Positions 42,183 through 62,972 of a stretch of DNA of 64,000 nt are shown piece after piece. The DNA is from Candidatus Acidiferrum typicum (lineage in GTDB: Bacteria; Acidobacteriota; Terriglobia; Acidiferrales; UBA7541). Below the pieces are notes generated by a model, which saw nothing but the letters and a program-made list of their open reading frames with translations, made no database searches and had not been told where the DNA came from. Where the stretch lies: positions 1 to 64,000 of the forward strand of contig JAOAPV010000038.1 of NCBI GenBank assembly GCA_025463055.1, read 5' to 3'. A program made the translations under genes and the position numbers. Each line of letters begins with the position of its first letter. Positions within the stretch are counted from its first letter, which is position 1.

Positions 42183-42257
42183 TGGCTGGGAGGCCTGGAC
42201 TCGAACCAGGATAGCCAGATCCAGAGTCTGGAGTCCTACCAATTGGACGACCTCCCA
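42183..42257 (-). tRNA. tRNA-Gln (anticodon CTG)
   Basis: The full cloverleaf can be folded. The acceptor stem is TGGGAGG/CCTCCCA, D arm GTCC/GGAC, and anticodon stem CCAGA/TCTGG with loop CTCTGGA (anticodon CTG). The T arm is CCTGG/CCAGG around TTCGAGT, discriminator G, and CCA is encoded (42183-42185). The integrase gene ends 20 bp upstream of its 5' end, so it may depend on read-through or on a very short promoter. Confidence 0.95.
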
Positions 42258-42276: not shown

Positions 42277-43461
42277 TTAGCGACTTTTACCCCGCGGCGA
42301 TGGAAGCATTTTCACTATCTTTTCACCGTTGGAGACCAGATTATTCAAGCTGCTACGCCTCCGCGGCCTCACGGTCTGCACGCGACGCATGGCCTCGACC
42401 ACGTCCTCAGTATCAACAATATGGTAGCGGTCGAACACATCCCTCGTCTTGTGGCCCGAGATTTTCATAGCAACTTTTTCGTTCACTCCTGCTTTCATCA
42501 GATTCTTGATCGCCGAACGTCGGAGATCGTGAATGATGAGTCCAGTGTACCGTGGGTCTGCTTTCCCATCAACCTCAGTCAGAGTGCCGAGGCCAGCAGC
42601 TACGCATGCTTTTTGCCACGCCTTACGGAGATTAGTTGTGTCGAATACTGCGCCTTCTTTGGGTTCGATCTTCCCAAGCATTTTCACTAGAACATCCGGC
42701 AGTGGAATTGTGCGAGCCTCACTATTCTTGGTTTGATCCTCTTCTAGTCGGATCAATGCCGACTTGAGATCAACCTGCGACCACTCGATCTGCTCAGCCT
42801 CACCTAAACGAACGCCGCAGAAGTAGAGGAACGTTGTCAGTGGTTTGAGTTTTGCGGGCAGGAACGAAACGAGGGAGTTGAACTGCTCCTTGGCCAAGAA
42901 GCCTTTCCTGGCTGGATTGCCTTTAAGGAGTCTGATCTTCGGGACGACCTGAATCTTCTTGTCTTCGTGGGCGAGAATCAGCATGCGGCGCAAAAGCCGC
43001 AACGATCCGTTTACGGTGTCATTCGACACGCCTTCGTCCAGCCTCGTGCGGGCGAACTCACGGGCCGCATCGGTCGTAATCTGCGGCAAAGGAACTCCTG
43101 GCTTCTCTGGTTCGCCGTTCTTGGCTTTGTACCCAAAGTGTTCGTCCAGGGGCTTGAGCCCCCAAATGGTTTCTGATCCGTCAGCCATCGTCTGCAATGA
43201 CTTGTTCCCGCGCTCAACATAGTTCTGCAACAGAGCTGCACGGAGATCAGCGTACCGAGTCTTGCGCATCTCCACTTCGGGCACGATCCCACGTTCGGTA
43301 TCGCCCATCAACCGGCGCAGCGTTTTCTTCGCTTCTTCCTTGACCTCGGTCTTGGTGCTGACGCGAGTTTGCCGACCCTCACGATAAAATTGCGCGTACC
43401 AAAATCGGCAGCCTCGAATCTTGATTAGACCGCCTTCGCCCCGCTCACGACGTTTAGCCAT
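42277..43461 (-). CDS. Tyrosine-recombinase integrase
   Basis: The product is 394 aa, starting at the ATG at 43461 with GGAGG five bases upstream. An Arm-type DNA-binding N-terminus (GLIKIRGCRFWYAQFYREG) and a SAM-like core-binding domain precede the catalytic domain. The catalytic set is complete: Arg218 (FCGVRLGEAEQ), Lys245, His311 and Arg314 (IHDLRRSAI), His337 (ISGHKTRD) and Tyr346. It lies beside tRNA-Gln and an excisionase-like gene, the usual layout at one end of an integrative element. Unusually, it sits on the 5' side of the tRNA. Confidence 0.93.
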   Translation of the reverse strand: MAKRRERGEGGLIKIRGCRFWYAQFYREGRQTRVSTKTEVKEEAKKTLRRLMGDTERGIVPEVEMRKTRYADLRAALLQNYVERGNKSLQTMADGSETIWGLKPLDEHFGYKAKNGEPEKPGVPLPQITTDAAREFARTRLDEGVSNDTVNGSLRLLRRMLILAHEDKKIQVVPKIRLLKGNPARKGFLAKEQFNSLVSFLPAKLKPLTTFLYFCGVRLGEAEQIEWSQVDLKSALIRLEEDQTKNSEARTIPLPDVLVKMLGKIEPKEGAVFDTTNLRKAWQKACVAAGLGTLTEVDGKADPRYTGLIIHDLRRSAIKNLMKAGVNEKVAMKISGHKTRDVFDRYHIVDTEDVVEAMRRVQTVRPRRRSSLNNLVSNGEKIVKMLPSPRGKSR

Positions 43462-43533
43462 AGACACCTCCTCACGCGAATGGTGAAAGGATACCAGATT
43501 CTTGGTGAAAATCTACAGGAATGTTTGCGCAGA

Positions 43534-50476: not shown

Positions 50477-51952
50477 TCAAAACGCAAGTTCTTCCTGATT
50501 TCTCTGAAGGACTTCGGTAGCTTCCTGCTTTTCTGGTTCGCTTTTATTTAGTAGGTTGAGAAGCTGAATCGTTCCACACATCCAAGTCTTTTTGCCGTTG
50601 GGTCCGACGGGCCCCTCTTTCTTGTAATCATCGTTGTGCATTTGTCGGTTGACCGCAGACTTGGATGTTTTGAATCCGTAGTCTTTAGTCAGAATGTCAG
50701 CTATTTCTCTGATATCGATTTCTGGCTCCTTCATCACGATCTTGGTAATCGCTGCCTTGATTTCGCCGATGGTGTCTCCCTCATCCTTAATGAGAAAGTC
50801 CTTCTCTCGGGCTAAAACGTCAACCAGTTGGCCTTCGTCTCCAACTAAGGTTGAGATCAGGGTGAATGGTTTCGGCTGCGGCGAAATATCACGAGGCTTA
50901 GTGCAGACGACCAGGATCTCAAGGGGGCCGCGGCCGTTGTCGTACAACGATTGGTTCACTTGGATTCCGTAGGCGGCATCACACATCGCGGCGTAATCGC
51001 CGGTGCCACGAAGCGTATTCTCCTGAGTCATGGCTTCTTTCGACGAAGACTTGGTGGCATGGTGGAATGCAAATATGCCGACAGCACCTGCAGCACGCAA
51101 CGCGACAATGTCATCTACTAGTTTTCTGTTCTGACTCGCTGCGTTCTCATCGGTTGAAGTGGAGAAACGAATTGCCGTATCCAGCATGATCACCGGCTTC
51201 ATCGCCTTCACGGCCTCAAGAACAATTGGGTTATCGAGCATCAGCGTGTTTCCCTCGGAGATTGTTCTGCAAAGGAAATAGTTGGGATCTGTCGGAATAT
51301 CTAACTGCTTGACGCGCTTCTTGAATGCTCGCGAGCTAACCTCGGGAATCAGGTAAAGTACTGGAAGCCTCTGTGGAACATTGAATCGGCCAAGAAATTT
51401 CTTACCGGTGCAGAGAGCTTTAGCGATGCTGAGGCCCAGCCAAGTCTTACCAGCCCCTGGCAGAGCACCAATAAAGGTGGTTCCTTCGGGGAAGAGACCA
51501 TCAATCAGGAAGCGAATGCCGCCATCTTCAAGCTGATCAACAGAACGAAAGTGGTCACGCCAATTCTCTGCGGCCGCTCCCTGTTCTACAGCTTTGTCGC
51601 GATCTGCTGTCTTCGGCTTGAGAAGTGATTCCAAGGTTTCCGGACCAGCCTGTTCGACGATCCTCATTGCCTGATGAAGCGCCGTCGGGACCACGAGTTG
51701 AAGCCCAAGGCTCTTTGCGGCTTCGATTTGCGCCGGAGAACCGGCCTTCAAATCTTCATGCGCCTGATTGAGGATCTTCTCCACATCATCCGCTGGTAGG
51801 GGTTGAACCAACTCGGTAGCGTTCCGCGTCTGTACGAAGACAGACTGGAACTCCCTGTCGCGGGGATATGACGTGATTGCTTCGATAGCCTCCGTCCGGA
51901 GATACTCCGCGGCGCGGTCAGGCGGAACTCTTTCATATTTAACTTTCCGCAT
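50477..51952 (-). CDS. RecA/RepA-type AAA ATPase (replicative helicase-like)
   Basis: The product is 491 aa with AAGGAG before the ATG. Residues 135-370 form an AAA_25/RepA-like P-loop domain: Walker A GALPGAGKT (162-170), Walker B KPVIMLDTAI (Asp258), and a later FAFHHATKSSS sensor. Such ATPases are hexameric plasmid or phage helicases (RSF1010 RepA, RecA-like). The C-terminus (about 412-450) is a winged helix (IREIADILTKDYGFKTSKSA). The N-terminal 130 residues are unrecognised. It is the only recognisable enzyme of this operon and probably unwinds element DNA. Confidence 0.8.
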   Translation of the reverse strand: MRKVKYERVPPDRAAEYLRTEAIEAITSYPRDREFQSVFVQTRNATELVQPLPADDVEKILNQAHEDLKAGSPAQIEAAKSLGLQLVVPTALHQAMRIVEQAGPETLESLLKPKTADRDKAVEQGAAAENWRDHFRSVDQLEDGGIRFLIDGLFPEGTTFIGALPGAGKTWLGLSIAKALCTGKKFLGRFNVPQRLPVLYLIPEVSSRAFKKRVKQLDIPTDPNYFLCRTISEGNTLMLDNPIVLEAVKAMKPVIMLDTAIRFSTSTDENAASQNRKLVDDIVALRAAGAVGIFAFHHATKSSSKEAMTQENTLRGTGDYAAMCDAAYGIQVNQSLYDNGRGPLEILVVCTKPRDISPQPKPFTLISTLVGDEGQLVDVLAREKDFLIKDEGDTIGEIKAAITKIVMKEPEIDIREIADILTKDYGFKTSKSAVNRQMHNDDYKKEGPVGPNGKKTWMCGTIQLLNLLNKSEPEKQEATEVLQRNQEELAF

Positions 51953-55450: not shown

Positions 55451-55712
55451 CATGCACACGTCCACACATTCATGCACACAACTGTGTGCCCATACATGGA
55501 CACGTTCGGTCAATGATCGTAGTCAAATTGTGTCGCCGCCAACTATCCGAGTCTACGCCATTTAGCCAACCACCAAACCCACGCATTAATATGTGCACAT
55601 CGCTGTGCATTCGTGGGCACGTTTGGGCACTTGCCTGGTATTCGCCCGAAAAGCCTTTGTGTGTTTTCAATTAGTTAGCGTGCACATGTTTGGGCATGCG
55701 TGTGCATATATC
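55451..55712. repeat. Cluster of GTGCAC/TGGGCA-type short repeats
   Basis: Variants of CATGCACAC, TGTGTGCCCATA, ATGTGCACAT, TGTGCATTCGTGGGCACG, GTTTGGGCA and GCGTGTGCATA recur in three groups (about 55451-55505, 55591-55630, 55680-55712). They stand just upstream of the ArdC/clamp-loader unit. A related set precedes the ribbon-helix-helix gene at 58339-58378. Confidence 0.55.
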
Positions 55713-55747
55713 CAGAGCATCCGGGCAGTATGAGCAAGGGGAGCGCA

Positions 55748-55936
55748 ATGACCTACGAAAGGTGCGGAATGGTCTTCACTGACAAGGCGGGTGCAATTCG
55801 GGAAGCACGCAATATCGCGAATGCATCCGGCCAACGTGTTTGGGTATTCGAGACTGACTCTCAACTGCCTGTCTCTTTTGCTGTACCTGTCCCCGTACTT
55901 CATCTGGAAAGTGACCGAAAGGACGGTAAAAACTAA
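55748..55936 (+). CDS. Small hypothetical protein preceding ardC
   Basis: The product is 62 aa from the ATG at 55748, which has AAGGGGAG just upstream; an in-frame ATG at 55730 has none. The sequence MVFTDKAGAIREARNIANAS and RVWVFETDSQLPVSFAVP suggests a small alpha/beta fold. Its TAA overlaps the next ATG by one base (TAATG), so it is coupled to the antirestriction gene. The function is unknown. Confidence 0.65.
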   Translation: MTYERCGMVFTDKAGAIREARNIANASGQRVWVFETDSQLPVSFAVPVPVLHLESDRKDGKN

Positions 55937-56811
55937 TGCCGAATGTCTATGACATTGTCACAGAGCAAGTCATCAAGCAATTAGAGCAAGGCGTAGCACC
56001 ATGGCGCAAGCCCTGGCGTACAGAGGCACCAGTCAATCTGGTGTCAGGCAAGCCCTATCGTGGTCTCAACGTCTTTATGCTGGCCACGCAAGGGTACGAA
56101 TCGCGCTATTGGATGACGTTCAATCAAGCCAAAAAGCTTGGTGGCCATATCAAGGCAGGCGAGAAGAGTACGCTTGTCGTTTTCTGGCACATCGGCGAAG
56201 AAAAGATCATCCGTAACGTGGAAACGGGCAAGGATCGGAAGTCCACTCCAATCTTGCTGCGCTATTACAACGTTTTCAACGTGTGTCAGACGGAAGGAAT
56301 CGCAGAGAAGTTAGGCTTGGGCAATTCCGTGCCTCGCGTGCCTTCGCTAGAACAGTGTGAAGCGATCGTTTCCGCTATGCCTAACCCTCCGCAACGTGAA
56401 CAGTCAGACCGCGCATGGTATCGGCCTAGCAATGACACGGTAGGCATGCCTGCCCGTGGTCTGTTCAATTCATCCGAAGAGTTTTACAGCACGCTATTCC
56501 ATGAACTAACTCACTCTACCGGGCACAAGTCACGCGTAGGCCGCGAAGGAATCGAACAGCATAACGGGTTTGGCTCTGAGTCCTACTCGAAAGAAGAGCT
56601 AGTAGCGGAAATGGGCGCAGCTATGCTCTGCGGAGTTACGGGCATCGAGCAAAGCACATTGGGCAATACTGCAGCCTATTTGCAGTCCTGGATTACTCGC
56701 CTAAAGAGCGATTCTAAGTTATTGGTCTCAGCCGCATCACAAGCCCAAAAGGCAGCCGATTACATTCTTGGAAAGTCTCTCGCAGTAGAGACAGAAACGG
56801 AGTCGCAATAA
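55936..56811 (+). CDS. ArdC-type antirestriction / ssDNA-binding protein
   Basis: The product is 291 aa. The N-terminal ArdC domain is clear: VYDIVTEQVIKQLEQGVAPW, GKPYRGLNVFMLA, YWMTFNQAKKLGGHIKAGEK and YYNVFNVCQTEGI. The C-terminal zincin-like domain has FHELTHSTGH (His189, Glu190, His193) and EELVAEMGAA with the third ligand Glu. Family knowledge: ArdC proteins bind single-stranded DNA and protect incoming mobile DNA from type I restriction. It is coupled to both neighbours by one-base TAATG overlaps. Confidence 0.9.
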   Translation: MPNVYDIVTEQVIKQLEQGVAPWRKPWRTEAPVNLVSGKPYRGLNVFMLATQGYESRYWMTFNQAKKLGGHIKAGEKSTLVVFWHIGEEKIIRNVETGKDRKSTPILLRYYNVFNVCQTEGIAEKLGLGNSVPRVPSLEQCEAIVSAMPNPPQREQSDRAWYRPSNDTVGMPARGLFNSSEEFYSTLFHELTHSTGHKSRVGREGIEQHNGFGSESYSKEELVAEMGAAMLCGVTGIEQSTLGNTAAYLQSWITRLKSDSKLLVSAASQAQKAADYILGKSLAVETETESQ

Positions 56812-57500
56812 TGAGTCTGTTTGACAATGTACCTGGACGCGGGCCAGCGACTCCGCAAAGTGAACAGGCAGGGTTAGCTTTCCCTGCCCGTCTCACTGAG
56901 AAGTATAGGCCGCATACGTTCGCTGACTTTGTAGGATTGGAAAAGCCTAAGAAGATCATGCAACGGTTTGCGGAGTGTCCGAAGTCTGACGCGTTTTTGT
57001 TTATCGGATCGTCGGGCATCGGTAAAACCACAATGGCGTTAGCGTTCTGCGAATTGATACGCGGTGAATTGCATCATGTGCCCTCGCAAACGTGCAATGT
57101 CGAAACGTTAGAAAACGTAATCCGACAATGCCACTACTACCCCGCCAACGGGAAGTCCTTCCACGTCGTAATCGTCGATGAGGCAGATCAAATGTCCAAG
57201 CCTGCCCAATTGCATCTATTGAGCAAACTTGACGCTACGGCATTTCCGCCGAATACCATCTTTATCTTTACCGCGAATGCCTCAGACGCGCTTGCGGATC
57301 GGTTCCTGTCACGTTGCAAGCAGATACCGTTTCAGTCTCACGGCCTTGCCGAACAGACTGCGCAATTTTTAGAGGCAGTGTGGTTGCGCGAGGTCGGAGC
57401 GACTGCGGAGAAACCTAACTTCTTGCGGATCGTGCGCGACTCCCAAAACAACGTGCGCAATGCCTTGAACATGCTAGAGACGGAGATTCTAGTGGCCTAG
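56811..57500 (+). CDS. Clamp-loader-like AAA+ ATPase (RFC small subunit/DnaX-like)
   Basis: The product is 229 aa, short compared with RFC small subunits (about 320). Diagnostic pieces are LTEKYRPHTFADFVGLEKP, Walker A GSSGIGKTT (Lys72), Walker B VVIVDEADQM, sensor 1 FIFTANA and the arginine-finger SRC of DRFLSRCKQIPF. The lid region remains but the C-terminal collar domain is missing. It may assist loading of a sliding clamp on element DNA, or act with ArdC during entry. Mobile-element clamp loaders are unusual in bacteria. Confidence 0.82.
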   Translation: MSLFDNVPGRGPATPQSEQAGLAFPARLTEKYRPHTFADFVGLEKPKKIMQRFAECPKSDAFLFIGSSGIGKTTMALAFCELIRGELHHVPSQTCNVETLENVIRQCHYYPANGKSFHVVIVDEADQMSKPAQLHLLSKLDATAFPPNTIFIFTANASDALADRFLSRCKQIPFQSHGLAEQTAQFLEAVWLREVGATAEKPNFLRIVRDSQNNVRNALNMLETEILVA

Positions 57501-58281: not shown

Positions 58282-58338
58282 ATCCATTCTCGAATCATTT
58301 GGGTTGCTCACAGAAGGATTTGGTGATTTCATGGTGGA

Positions 58339-58378
58339 CACTAGTGGGCATACAAGTATGTGTACATGTATGTACGCA
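58339..58378 (+). promoter_or_regulatory. Candidate operator before the ribbon-helix-helix gene
   Basis: GTGGGCATACAAGTATGTGT, then ACATGTATGTACGCAC, shows alternating GTGTACAT/ATGTACGCAC half sites. The motifs resemble the repeats at 55451-55712, so one regulator may serve both places. TGGACA about 16 bp before TATGTG may be a promoter. Confidence 0.35.
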
Positions 58379-58429
58379 CCTGCTAGTATTCCTACTGCAG
58401 CTGATGACACAGAAAGAGACAATGCGGTA

Positions 58430-58633
58430 ATGAAAAAGAAACAGCAAACAGCAAGCGCAACAGCAGCACCAGAAGAGCCTCGCGGTGTAGTTCGTATTCC
58501 GTTGGAGTTGCCGCCTGACCTGGCTCGCCGCTTGAATCAAGCAATGGCCAAGAAATTTCCGGGGGCCAATCGTAGTTATGTATTGCGTGAACTGATCGAA
58601 CAGTTTTGCAAAGAGGTGGGAGTTAAGGAGTAG
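58430..58633 (+). CDS. Ribbon-helix-helix-type DNA-binding protein
   Basis: The product is 67 aa from the ATG at 58430. A basic Lys/Gln/Ala N-terminal arm leads to GVVRIPLELPPDLARRLNQA and a second helix RSYVLRELIEQFCKEVG, matching the beta-strand plus two-helix MetJ/Arc/CopG fold. It is likely a dimeric repressor, possibly binding the repeats just upstream and those before the ArdC unit. It is followed 44 bp later by the recombinase gene. Confidence 0.7.
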   Translation: MKKKQQTASATAAPEEPRGVVRIPLELPPDLARRLNQAMAKKFPGANRSYVLRELIEQFCKEVGVKE

Positions 58634-58677: not shown

Positions 58678-59739
58678 ATGGCATCGTATCTAACTTTAGG
58701 TGAGCAGCAAGCGCGACAAGCGCTGGTTGAGAAACCAGTCTATGTCGCCGATGACTCTGACCTAGATCCTTCTTTTTTTCCGAACGGGTCACCCAGAGCC
58801 GCTTCTCTGCAACGCACCTTTCATTCCCAATATTTTATCTGGATTGACGAGCTTAAAAATCGCGCATACGATCCGATTGCCCCGAGTACTTTAGCCAACT
58901 TTATCAGTTGCGCCAAAACGATCCTCTCTGTCATTGGACCGTCAACTCCGCTCGAAGGGTTCAAGAACCAAGCGATGGCCCAATTTGTGAGGGACGCGAA
59001 GAAATTCAACTGGGCTCCTGCAACGCTCGCCCAGCACATCCTGATCATCAAACTGATTATTGCTTCTGCCACAGATGAAGAGGGCGAGCAGCTTTTCCCT
59101 CGCGTCTGGAATCGCCGGATTGTTAACGCCCCGCGCGTGGAACGCTCTAAACAAAAGACTCCGAAGCTCACCAAGGACGATGTTGAGAAACTCATCCAAA
59201 ACGCTGCCAGCGATCAAGAGAGACTTTTCTATGCTTTCCTGTGCGGCTCCGGGCTCAGAGCTAGCGAAGCTCAGGCAGTACGCGTAGGCGGAAATGATTC
59301 CCAAACTACCTGGAACCAAGTCAAGGCTACTATTATTGTTCGCACCGGTTGCTTTCGCAATTCGGAAACCGGCCGCACCAAGACGAGCGCAGGGCAGCGG
59401 GAAGTGTTTCTTCACAGCGAACTAAATCAAGCGTTGGCTGCGTTCGTTGTGCAGGAAAAGCGCGAAGCCGGCAGCTTTCTTTTCCAGAGCAAACCCGGTC
59501 AGCCAATCCGATTGAGTACAATTCGTGACCATATGGCAAAGTGCATTACGGGTGCTGCACCTCATGCGGCCAGAAGGTTTTATATTTCCTGGCTCCGAAA
59601 GTGCCGTGTGCTGGAGGAGATCATCCGGAGCCAGGTCGGACATGCGGATGAGTCCATCACGGACACCTATAGCTTTCAAGATGACAACACGGTACGCGCT
59701 GCGGTCGAAGCTGCTGGCCTCGGTTTCAATCTAGCGTAG
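58678..59739 (+). CDS. Tyrosine recombinase (phage integrase family)
   Basis: The product is 353 aa; GGAAAAG lies upstream of the ATG. The catalytic set is visible: Arg194 (GSGLRASEAQ), Lys235 (GRTKTSAGQREV), His296 and Arg299 (PHAARRFYISWL), His322 (QVGHADESITD) and Tyr331. It lacks the Arm domain of the first integrase and is unrelated in detail. It may resolve element multimers or mark the end of a second, nested element. Confidence 0.88.
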   Translation: MASYLTLGEQQARQALVEKPVYVADDSDLDPSFFPNGSPRAASLQRTFHSQYFIWIDELKNRAYDPIAPSTLANFISCAKTILSVIGPSTPLEGFKNQAMAQFVRDAKKFNWAPATLAQHILIIKLIIASATDEEGEQLFPRVWNRRIVNAPRVERSKQKTPKLTKDDVEKLIQNAASDQERLFYAFLCGSGLRASEAQAVRVGGNDSQTTWNQVKATIIVRTGCFRNSETGRTKTSAGQREVFLHSELNQALAAFVVQEKREAGSFLFQSKPGQPIRLSTIRDHMAKCITGAAPHAARRFYISWLRKCRVLEEIIRSQVGHADESITDTYSFQDDNTVRAAVEAAGLGFNLA

Positions 59740-60515: not shown

Positions 60516-62972
60516 ATGGCCCTCAAGAAATCCCAGCTTTATAGCTCACTCTGGAGCAGTTGCGACGAACTGCGCGGCGGCATGGATGCCAGCCAATATA
60601 AGGACTATGTCCTCGTCCTGCTGTTCATCAAGTACGTCAGCGACAAATACGCCGGACAGCCTTTTGCCCCTATCACTATCCCGAAGGGCGCGAGCTTTAA
60701 AGACATGGTCGCGCTCAAGGGCAAGTCAGACATCGGCGATCAGATCAACAAGAAGATCATCGCGCCCCTGGCCAACGCCAACAAATTGTCAGACATGCCG
60801 GATTTTAACGATGCGAGCAAACTTGGCAGCGGCAAAGAGATGGTGGATCGCCTCACCAATCTCATCGCCATCTTCGAGAACAAGGCGCTCGATTTCTCAA
60901 AAAACCGGGCAGAGGGCGACGACATTCTAGGTGACGCCTATGAATACCTCATGCGGCACTTCGCCACGGAGAGCGGCAAGAGCAAGGGACAGTTCTACAC
61001 TCCCGCCGAGGTCAGCCGCATAATTGCGAAGATCATAGGCATCCACGACGCCAAGACTAGCGCTTCCACCACAGTCTATGACCCTACCTGCGGCTCCGGT
61101 TCGTTGCTCTTGAAAGTGGGCGACGAAGCCGGTACCGCCGTCACGCTCTACGGGCAGGAAAAAGACGGAGTCACGAGTGGTCTCGCCCGCATGAACATGA
61201 TTCTGCACAACAACCCCACCGCGCTCATCGTCCAGGGCAATACGCTGACTGACCCAAAGTTCAAGGATGGCGACACGCTCAAGACCTTCGATTACGTCAT
61301 CGCCAATCCGCCCTTTTCCGACAAGCGCTGGAGCACCGGCCTCGATCCGCAGAACGACCCTTACCAACGCTTCCTGCCCTTCGGAACGCCGCCTGCCAAA
61401 CAGGGCGATTATGCCTACCTGCTACACATCGTCCGTTCACTGAAGAGCACCGGCAAAGGCGCGTGCATTCTGCCGCACGGCGTATTGTTCCGCGGAAATG
61501 CCGAGGCCGACATCCGCCGGACCCTCGTCCGCAAGGGCTATATCAAGGGGATCATCGGACTGCCCGCCAACCTGTTTTACGGCACCGGTATCCCTGCTTG
61601 CATCGTAGCTATAGACAAACAAGACGCCCACGCCCGCAAGGGCATCTTCATGATCAACGCTAGTGGTGGCTTCATGAAGGACGGCCCTAAGAACCGCTTG
61701 CGCGCTCAGGACATCCACAAGATCGTGGACGCCTTTAACAAGCGGCTCGAAATTCCGAAATATTCGCGCATGATCGGCGTTGAGGAAATTGAGAAGAACG
61801 AGTTCAACCTAAACCTGCCGCGCTATATCGATATCCAGACGGACGAGGACGTACAGAACATCGAAGGCCACCTCAAAGGCGGTATCCCTGCGGCTGACGC
61901 CGAGGCCCTGAGTCGTTACTGGGCACTTTGCCCGATGCTAAAGACCGTCCTGTTCAAACCAAATCGTCCCAATTACCTCGACCTGGCGGTGGAGAAATCG
62001 GCAATCAAAACCACCATTTACGAGCACCCCGAGTTCGCCACTTTTGTCACCGGTATGAATGCCAACTTTGCAGTCTGGCGCGACAAAAGTGCTACGACGC
62101 TTAAAGCATTGCAACCGGGCTGCCACCCGAAGGAATGCGTCGCTCGCTTGTCCGAGGATTTACTCGCACACTATGCCGACAAGCCGCTAATCGACCCCTA
62201 TGACATATATCAGCACCTTATGGACTACTGGTCGGAGACCATGCAGGACGATTGCTACATCATTTCAGCTGAGGGCTGGAAAGCGGGGACGCGCGTCCGC
62301 GAGGTTGTGCAGTTCAAGAACAAGGACGGGAAACTGGTCTGGCCCGAGGGGCACGACTTCAAGAAAGGTAAGCGAAGGTTTAAAAGTGACTTGATACCTG
62401 GGCCAATCCTGATCGGACGCTATTTTGCGCCCGACCTCGCATCCATCCAGGCGATCCAGCAAGAACTTGCGGCTATTGAGCGGCAAATCGATGAACAAAA
62501 GGAGGAACAGGGCGGCGAGGGAGGCTTACTGGAGGAAGTCATCGATAGTGAAGGCGAAAAGCGTAAGGTCACAGCCAAGGCTGTAAAGATACGGCTCAAA
62601 GAAATCGGGAAGGACGCCGAGTTTGCCGACGAGCGGGCCGCATTGGAGGATCATGACGCCTTGCTCGATAAGCAGTCGGACGCTAAGAGCCGCCTCAAGC
62701 AGGCAGTTGCGGACTTGGATGGAAAGATGGAGGCCAAATACACCGCGCTCACCGAAGCCGAGATCCAGACATTGGTGGTGAATGACAAGTGGCTCGCAGC
62801 GCTGGACGCCGCCATACAGAGCGAAATGCACCGGATGAGCCAGATACTAACCCAGCGCGTGAAGGAGCTAGCCGACCGTTATGAAACCCCACTGCCACGG
62901 ATGGTCAACCATCTGGCTGATCTAGCGAATAAAGTGAACGGACATCTCAAACGGATGGGCTTCGCATCGTGA
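60516..62972 (+). CDS. hsdM: Type I restriction-modification methylase subunit
   Basis: The product is 818 aa. The N-terminal helical domain (SQLYSSLWSSCDELRGGMDA) is typical of HsdM. The N6-adenine methylase core has DPTCGSGSLLL (Asp189, motif I, S-adenosylmethionine binding) and NPPF at Asn264 (motif IV), plus GKSKGQFYTPAEVSRII. A C-terminal extension from about 500 has long coiled coils (KAVKIRLKEIGKDAEFADER) that likely contact HsdS. No Shine-Dalgarno is obvious before the ATG. Its stop overlaps the GTG of hsdS as GTGA. HsdR is not in the window. Confidence 0.95.
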   Translation: MALKKSQLYSSLWSSCDELRGGMDASQYKDYVLVLLFIKYVSDKYAGQPFAPITIPKGASFKDMVALKGKSDIGDQINKKIIAPLANANKLSDMPDFNDASKLGSGKEMVDRLTNLIAIFENKALDFSKNRAEGDDILGDAYEYLMRHFATESGKSKGQFYTPAEVSRIIAKIIGIHDAKTSASTTVYDPTCGSGSLLLKVGDEAGTAVTLYGQEKDGVTSGLARMNMILHNNPTALIVQGNTLTDPKFKDGDTLKTFDYVIANPPFSDKRWSTGLDPQNDPYQRFLPFGTPPAKQGDYAYLLHIVRSLKSTGKGACILPHGVLFRGNAEADIRRTLVRKGYIKGIIGLPANLFYGTGIPACIVAIDKQDAHARKGIFMINASGGFMKDGPKNRLRAQDIHKIVDAFNKRLEIPKYSRMIGVEEIEKNEFNLNLPRYIDIQTDEDVQNIEGHLKGGIPAADAEALSRYWALCPMLKTVLFKPNRPNYLDLAVEKSAIKTTIYEHPEFATFVTGMNANFAVWRDKSATTLKALQPGCHPKECVARLSEDLLAHYADKPLIDPYDIYQHLMDYWSETMQDDCYIISAEGWKAGTRVREVVQFKNKDGKLVWPEGHDFKKGKRRFKSDLIPGPILIGRYFAPDLASIQAIQQELAAIERQIDEQKEEQGGEGGLLEEVIDSEGEKRKVTAKAVKIRLKEIGKDAEFADERAALEDHDALLDKQSDAKSRLKQAVADLDGKMEAKYTALTEAEIQTLVVNDKWLAALDAAIQSEMHRMSQILTQRVKELADRYETPLPRMVNHLADLANKVNGHLKRMGFAS

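Follow-up and report, generated by a model that had tools for sequence, protein, structure and literature searches.

The window, that is, the whole stretch of DNA that was analyzed, is 64,000 nt long and corresponds to positions 1 to 64000 of a 174,844-nt contig (assembly size, 5.33 Mb). It carries a run of three genes encoding a small open reading frame (ORF) product, an ArdC protein (291 aa), and an AAA+ ATPase (229 aa), as the original prediction had described, and the one-base TAATG overlap claimed for both junctions was confirmed (positions 55934 to 55938 and 56809 to 56813). The two longer ORFs were open and began with ATG (Table 1). The stop codon of the small ORF ends at position 55936, and its start is ambiguous (GTG at 55700, ATG at 55730, or ATG at 55748); inspection by eye revealed a AAGGGGAG stretch just 5' of ATG 55748. 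Family and profile searches with the small ORF, using a query starting at ATG 55730, returned no family match. The second gene had likewise been correctly recognized as ArdC (PF08401, 2.2e-34; PF18818, 6.6e-35; phrog_7245, 2e-80), with ArdC-N and MPTase-PolyVal domains above the Pfam cut-offs and an HExxH motif.

Table 1. Coordinates of features in the window, on the same contig, and at related loci
Feature	Coordinates	Strand	Remarks
tRNA-Gln gene	42183-42257
Left attachment repeat, 40 nt	42218..42257	.	identical to same contig 80757-80796 (beyond window)
Tyrosine integrase	42277..43467	-	PF00589 4.4e-16; beside tRNA-Gln, left island end
AAA_25 ATPase	50477-51952		on island
TGKGCAY cluster, 11 motifs, both orientations	55452..55707	.	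some spaced 10-11 nt; just 5' of operon
Small ORF	55748..55936	+	first gene of run; 62 aa from ATG 55748; stop overlaps ArdC start
ArdC	55936..56811	+	ArdC-N (3-114) and MPTase-PolyVal zincin (153-269), HELTH at 189-193
Clamp-loader-type AAA+ ATPase, collarless	56811..57500	+	229 aa; Walker A/B, sensor 1, Arg finger, sensor 2 intact
Possible ribbon-helix-helix protein	58304..58633	+	weak PF01402, E 0.047, below cut-off
Second tyrosine recombinase	58678..59739	+	PF00589 2.5e-10, phrog_1 2.8e-28
HsdM, type I restriction-modification	60516..62972	+	same island
HsdR	same contig 65200-68268		on island, beyond window
DUF932 genes	L070 7014-7892; L105 562-1572; L102 6408-7124		L102 about 0.9 kb from ATPase

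The exact 40-nt repeats, which are copies of the 5' half of the tRNA-Gln gene, were found at both ends of a region of 38.6 kb, indicating that the run sits inside an integrative island of an acidobacterium. The region thus shows what is expected of a tRNA-integrated element, namely, direct repeats copying part of a tRNA gene and an integrase at one end. ArdC and the island's own type I restriction genes are carried on one element, and a gene for a YgjP-like (SprT-related) metallopeptidase directly follows HsdR (same contig, 68268 to 68984; L084, 4268 to 4984).

Upstream of the operon, 11 TGKGCAY motifs fell within one 300-nt interval, compared to at most two in intervals not touching the cluster, a post hoc count given that the motif was picked from the cluster region itself. 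The cluster is possibly an operator or iteron-like array. The motif also occurs at position 58345, within the 5' part of the possible ribbon-helix-helix gene. Direct repeats of another sequence with a period of ∼11 or 22 nt were seen upstream in ten viral relatives (L034, L036, L040, L091, L094, L096, L097, L101, L106, and L107), and several of these contigs stop near the upstream repeat array. An exact 7-mer repeat test upstream of the operon was mostly negative; tandem-repeat and autocorrelation tests were positive in part of the loci.

The ATPase is a distinct clamp-loader-type protein

Sequence searches identified the ATPase as clamp-loader-like (phrog_168, 9.5e-31). It matched an RFC small subunit model at 1.5e-21, yet far below the cut-off of that model, and scored 74.6 bits against the 250-bit cut-off of the DnaX equivalog TIGR02397. 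Its closest PDB sequence match was the archaeal (Pyrococcus) RFC small subunit RFCS (4.4e-15), while gamma, yeast RFC, and T4 gp44 ranked lower. The AlphaFold model, for which 25 family members served as input, had a mean pLDDT of 90.1 and a pTM of 0.83, and in comparisons with the PDB by Foldseek and VIA-align the best 50 matches listed were all clamp-loader entries. VIA-align placed residues 22 to 229 on domains I and II of the RFC subunit 8fs3_C (Z, 22.6; rmsd, 2.2; 202 residues aligned). In the model, the last helix (residues 215 to 228) is followed by a single residue at the point where a collar would start. The modeled protein therefore has a clamp-loader-type fold comprising AAA+ domains I and II but, as had been proposed, not the collar domain of clamp-loader subunits. 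The term collarless applies to the window protein and its like-sized relatives; 8 of 27 aligned members have at least 18 extra C-terminal residues. By eye, the C-terminal extras in L043, L044, L046, and L047 resemble zinc-finger or helix-turn-helix segments.

In the 27-member alignment, which includes two incomplete frames, G66, G69, G71, K72, E124, T154, and N156 were present in all members, and D123 (25/27), R168, R216, and Q133 (26/27 each) were nearly invariant. We take the catalytic positions to correspond to Walker A and B, sensor 1, the Arg finger, and sensor 2. Two cysteines beside helix 97-107 were also near invariant (C95, 26/27; C107, 25/27). Residue Q133 aligned with a glutamine of Pyrococcus RFCS and is probably the counterpart of T4 Gln 118, a helix glutamine that, according to the available part of PMC8121543, loaders of phages, archaea, and eukaryotes retain and those of bacteria lack.

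RFC small subunits, T4 gp44, and DnaX gamma thus resemble the ATPase in AAA+ domains I and II, Walker A/B, sensor 1, the S-R Arg finger, and sensor 2. In contrast to these proteins, the window ATPase has no collar, contains C95 and C107, scores far below the DnaX and RFC equivalog cut-offs, and belongs to a clade of its own, most records of which had no bacterial-type clamp found. The collar of known loaders is described, in the text of PMC3331839 accessible to us, as holding the pentamer together and blocking the primer 3' end.

In a tree of 45 sequences, constructed without L077, L078, a HolB fragment, and eight near copies, 25 family members lay on one side of a branch with support of 100/99. 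Hence, as anticipated, the ATPase did not group with ordinary DnaX, but formed a clade separate from the DnaX of the host as well as from RarA, archaeal RFC, gp44, and the other viral loaders (RarA and DnaX L006 were labeled by reading, gp44 and RFC from record annotation except for L083). Together with the family cut-offs, the tree ruled out that the ATPase is an ordinary DnaX, RarA, or RFC. Two short viral clamp-loader-like ATPases, L050 (7908 to 8636; 242 aa) and L067 (7914 to 8633; 239 aa), were placed near DnaX (96/76), and in view of these sequences the collar may have been lost on more than one occasion.

The dN/dS ratios of six close pairs were 0.06, 0.06, 0.10, 0.06, 0.06, and 0.17, and a seventh pair was saturated at synonymous sites. 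These values indicated that the gene is under selection at its present length and, together with the common C terminus, spoke against a truncated pseudogene. ATPase frames were broken in single copies (L077, L106, L216, and L217), by decay or assembly error, and the ArdC frame next to the broken ATPase was intact in L077 and L216. We conclude that the ATPase represents a distinct subfamily of clamp-loader-type AAA+ proteins under purifying selection.

Distribution and carriers

A pattern scan of 84,980 genomes yielded 10 loci, of which nine were labeled Acidobacteria, Acidobacteriales, or Acidobacteriia and one "uncultured bacterium." Matches were obtained in 12 of 89 genomes of the host's family and in 21 of 399 of its class, the latter including G548, G677, G725, and G764, whose frames of 572 to 650 aa were taken as DnaX. 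An even draw from the phylum gave matches in 4 of 396 genomes, with an ATPase-sized frame in the host's own genome only. Plasmid and phage collections contained matches in the under-60% band only (22 to 31% among the matches listed), and IMG/VR yielded at least 34 close viral loci, the second scan covering the best 80 of 296 matches.

Alongside the short ATPase, one carrier phage (G402) encodes a terminase and a 698-aa portal together with a DnaC-like loader and a primosomal protein; a second one (G405) carries genes for an integrase, DnaB, and a beta-type clamp of its own (L164, 7757 to 9316; phrog_947, 9e-82). A domain of this bacterial (beta) type, the one searched for, was detected in 1 of 16 viral records, which are fragments, and none was found on the window's contig. 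The window genome had two beta-type clamp matches, in one frame on a different contig. Likewise, jumbo-phage RFC-like clamp loaders occur without a detectable PCNA-like clamp, as stated in the accessible sections of PMC7824862. The 15 viral records and the window's contig in which no beta-type clamp domain was found, like the loader-subunit fold and the Arg finger, would suit an ATPase that enters the clamp loader of the host (DnaX/HolB) or imitates it, diverting or blocking this loader for the benefit of the element. Such a takeover appears unlikely to us, given that one carrier phage has its own clamp, that copies are present in many bacterial genome assemblies, and that the ATPase lacks the very part that holds known loaders together (PMC3331839, as far as its text is accessible).

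Recurrent association with ArdC-N proteins

The original prediction also implied that ardC and the ATPase gene are paired repeatedly across genomes, and this proved to be the case: the pairing was observed at 25 of 54 listed loci, but at none of 71 other viral clamp-loader-like loci. Neither result named there as refuting the prediction, grouping of the ATPase with ordinary DnaX or unrelated AAA+ proteins or a lack of repeated pairing, was obtained. Among surveyed loci, an ArdC-N gene was the commonest noticed neighbor of the ATPase, being found at 14 of 20 loci in genome assemblies and 11 of 34 listed viral loci. Fisher's test gave p values of 1e-11 for the pairing and 1e-6 for the viral loci alone, with kinship ignored and near copies in both sets. 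The 54 loci consisted of the window, 10 loci from the pattern scan, 9 new loci from the class and family, and 34 viral loci (L034 to L049 and L090 to L107); because the viral loci came partly from the best 80 of 296 matches, the survey is incomplete. Left out were L008 to L011 (same contigs as L043, L044, L045, and L048), L201 to L205, L211, L213, and L214 (contigs of earlier loci, going by their length), L069, and L108 to L111, which had intermediate scores and of which none had ArdC and L109 had DUF932. L078, which begins inside the ATPase so that its upstream side lies off the contig, was counted among the 54, but not among the 25; L071 and L072 belong to one genome. The comparison set comprised L050 to L068 (19 loci) and L112 to L163 (52 loci), included some near copies and flanks of unequal length, and had loaders of mostly 300 to 343 aa, L050 and L067 being short. 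As ArdC was present in the flanks of 0/71 of these loci, a general association of ArdC with viral clamp loaders was rejected.

The 25 partners were of several kinds. Fourteen were full ArdC proteins, and two were C-terminal parts, counted with the ArdC C terminus alone (L072 at a contig edge and L075, a remnant). Two combined ArdC-N with an M78-like domain (L034 and L096), and seven had ArdC-N only (L038, L076, L090, L206, L212, L215, and L217), with no protease domain found in a Pfam search. ArdC-N exceeded the Pfam cut-off in L034, L096, all seven short partners, and those full ones that were tested singly; in L036, L037, L040, L041, and L074 it was confirmed through a record-wide search, which detected ArdC-N in 12 of 25 records. 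Of 16 viral records, 6 had ArdC-N adjoining the ATPase, whereas the four copies in G412 lay elsewhere. The HExxH motif was kept in 13 ArdC-type neighbors listed.

ArdC of R388 and pSa has the same ArdC-N and MPTase-PolyVal domains and HExxH motif as the window ArdC. According to the accessible text of PMC7213743, R388 ArdC counteracts HsdRMS in the recipient cell (antirestriction), its N-terminal domain binds single-stranded DNA (ssDNA) nonspecifically, it still serves conjugation when the protease center is mutated, and its zincin domain resembles Spartan and IrrE. Whereas R388/pSa ArdC belongs to a conjugative plasmid, the proteins studied here occur in phages and an integrative island, beside a clamp-loader-type ATPase, and seven of them have no protease domain. 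The latter fit the protease mutant of R388 ArdC described there. Thus, the partner kinds together with the R388 data suggested that the shared feature is the ssDNA-binding domain rather than the protease. The same seven partners, as well as the clamp-loader type of the ATPase fold, make it very improbable that the ATPase acts as an unfoldase feeding proteins (restriction subunits, relaxases, or crosslinked proteins) to the zincin domain of ArdC, an idea that could appeal to the resemblance to Spartan and IrrE (PMC7213743, accessible part) and to the 13 conserved HExxH motifs.

ArdC was not an obligate partner, since 28 of the 54 listed family members had no ArdC-N neighbor and 1 more was not judgeable. 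The ATPases of L093 and L094 are 93% identical, with ArdC beside that of L093 only. In L075 (2229 to 2438), ArdC is down to its last 69 residues and the adjoining ATPase is still conserved. On the best tree of 41 members, the presence of full ArdC required 8 changes, of which well-supported branches forced 3; shuffling gave a mean of 10.6 changes, and 26 of 500 shuffles were as low as 8. ArdC presence is therefore at most weakly tied to the ATPase lineage. A tree of 13 ArdC neighbors did not resolve them as one clade, either (5 changes, 2 forced). The changes on both trees indicated that the two genes came together or parted on several occasions, i.e., that the association is recurrent, but not fixed.

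Gene order and other neighbors

In genome assemblies, ArdC or ArdC-N preceded the ATPase in all 14 pairs, and the genes overlapped at 7 of 13 junctions examined, a coupling beyond chance. The overlap was the 4-nt ATGA in L074, L075, L077, L206, and L207, one base in the window, and 11 or 23 nt in L071; gaps measured 1 nt in L208 and about 66 to 691 nt in L076, L212, and L215. No intact ATPase start was found at the L216 and L217 junctions. Viral pairs occurred in both gene orders, with 46 to about 830 nt between the two genes and, in some cases, other ORFs in this interval. The viral arrangement would also be expected if the two genes were plain neighbors, i.e., a replication ATPase and an antirestriction ArdC clustered among early genes and swapped as cassettes without their products ever interacting. 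Gain and loss of ArdC across the ATPase tree, its alternation with DUF932 (see below), and the differing equipment of two carrier phages, one with DnaB and its own clamp and the other with a DnaC-like loader, point the same way; the overlaps at 7 of 13 genome-assembly junctions and the lack of ArdC in the flanks of the 71 other viral loci do not. We regard this explanation as possible, though somewhat doubtful, and rank it a close second to the establishment module discussed below.

A DUF932 gene preceded the ATPase in place of ArdC at 3 of 54 listed loci (L070, L102, and L105). The same arrangement, DUF932 upstream with ArdC missing, was seen in the more distant L109 (7060 to 7926). An ssDNA-binding fold of DUF932 found no support: the AlphaFold pLDDT was 60.5 (4 sequences), with no PDB match under E 0.001, and phmmer against the PDB returned three matches (best E, 0.74), RAD52 chains at an E of about 2 being meaningless. 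A serine resolvase gene was located at most about 0.7 kb downstream of the ATPase at 9 of 20 genome-assembly loci (L070, L071, L074, L075, L077, L207, L208, L209, and L216; four identified by Pfam, the rest by phmmer), and the resolvase-linked cassette may belong to an integrated plasmid or phage.

Discussion

The reading that we tentatively favor, as possible rather than probable, treats the two genes as a module used by acidobacterial phages and integrative islands early on or for their establishment, the ATPase working on single-stranded stretches of DNA that its partner holds. In a manner dependent on ATP and the Arg finger, the ATPase would oligomerize on the element's own DNA where this is single-stranded or mixed single/double-stranded, presumably just after entry of the element or while it replicates. 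Lacking a collar, the ATPase would have to rely on a different scaffold and would not have to be confined to primer ends; alternatively, it might form a smaller or looser assembly. The ssDNA-binding partner (ArdC, ArdC-N alone, or perhaps DUF932) would mark or coat the strand and could supply the scaffold. As a result, the entering DNA would be converted more rapidly or protected, through clamp recruitment, gap filling, and exclusion of type I restriction.

Support for the establishment module comes from the near invariance of catalytic positions in 27 members, the dN/dS ratios, the clade support of 100/99, and the fold match, and also from the pairing at 25 of 54 listed loci versus 0 of 71, the 7 of 13 overlaps, and one carrier phage having its own beta-type clamp. 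It is weakened by the 28 of 54 listed members that are unpaired, the weak tie of ArdC to lineage, the difference between L093 and L094, the ArdC remnant in L075, the broken ATPase frames, the detection of a clamp in only 1 of 16 viral records, and the lack of support for DUF932 as an ssDNA binder. The unpaired members, the L093/L094 difference, and DUF932 in the place of ArdC also argue against an obligate complex. A more specific version, which we consider rather unlikely, is a DNA entry machine of a new kind, in which an exchangeable ssDNA-binding protein (ArdC, ArdC-N alone, or DUF932) would act in trans in place of the missing collar of a clamp-loader ring. This ring would assemble on the entering or newly copied strand of the element, recruit the beta clamp, and in this way link synthesis of the second strand to protection against type I restriction.

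To our knowledge, phages of Acidobacteriota are little studied. A literature search of limited coverage, mostly of titles and the beginnings of abstracts, yielded no description of a collarless loader or of an ArdC-loader pair. The accessible part of the jumbo-phage survey (PMC7824862) names ArdC-like proteins apart, not as loader neighbors, and that of the polyvalent-protein work (PMC5512222) treats ArdC-N at length, with the word "clamp" absent. The ATPase clade and its pairing with ArdC thus look new, whereas their parts are of known kinds.

The ATPase gene is common to Acidobacteriota phages and bacterial genome assemblies, 12 of the 89 assemblies from the host family among them. A shortened clamp-loader relative hence recurs in mobile elements and phages of soil Acidobacteria, often adjoining an ArdC-type protein with which it may share a joint role. 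The link to ArdC-N would give a handle on how ArdC acts against type I restriction, a question left open in the accessible text of PMC7213743, and a natural, conserved collarless family would reveal the parts of the AAA+ motor that function by themselves and possible substitutes for the collar.
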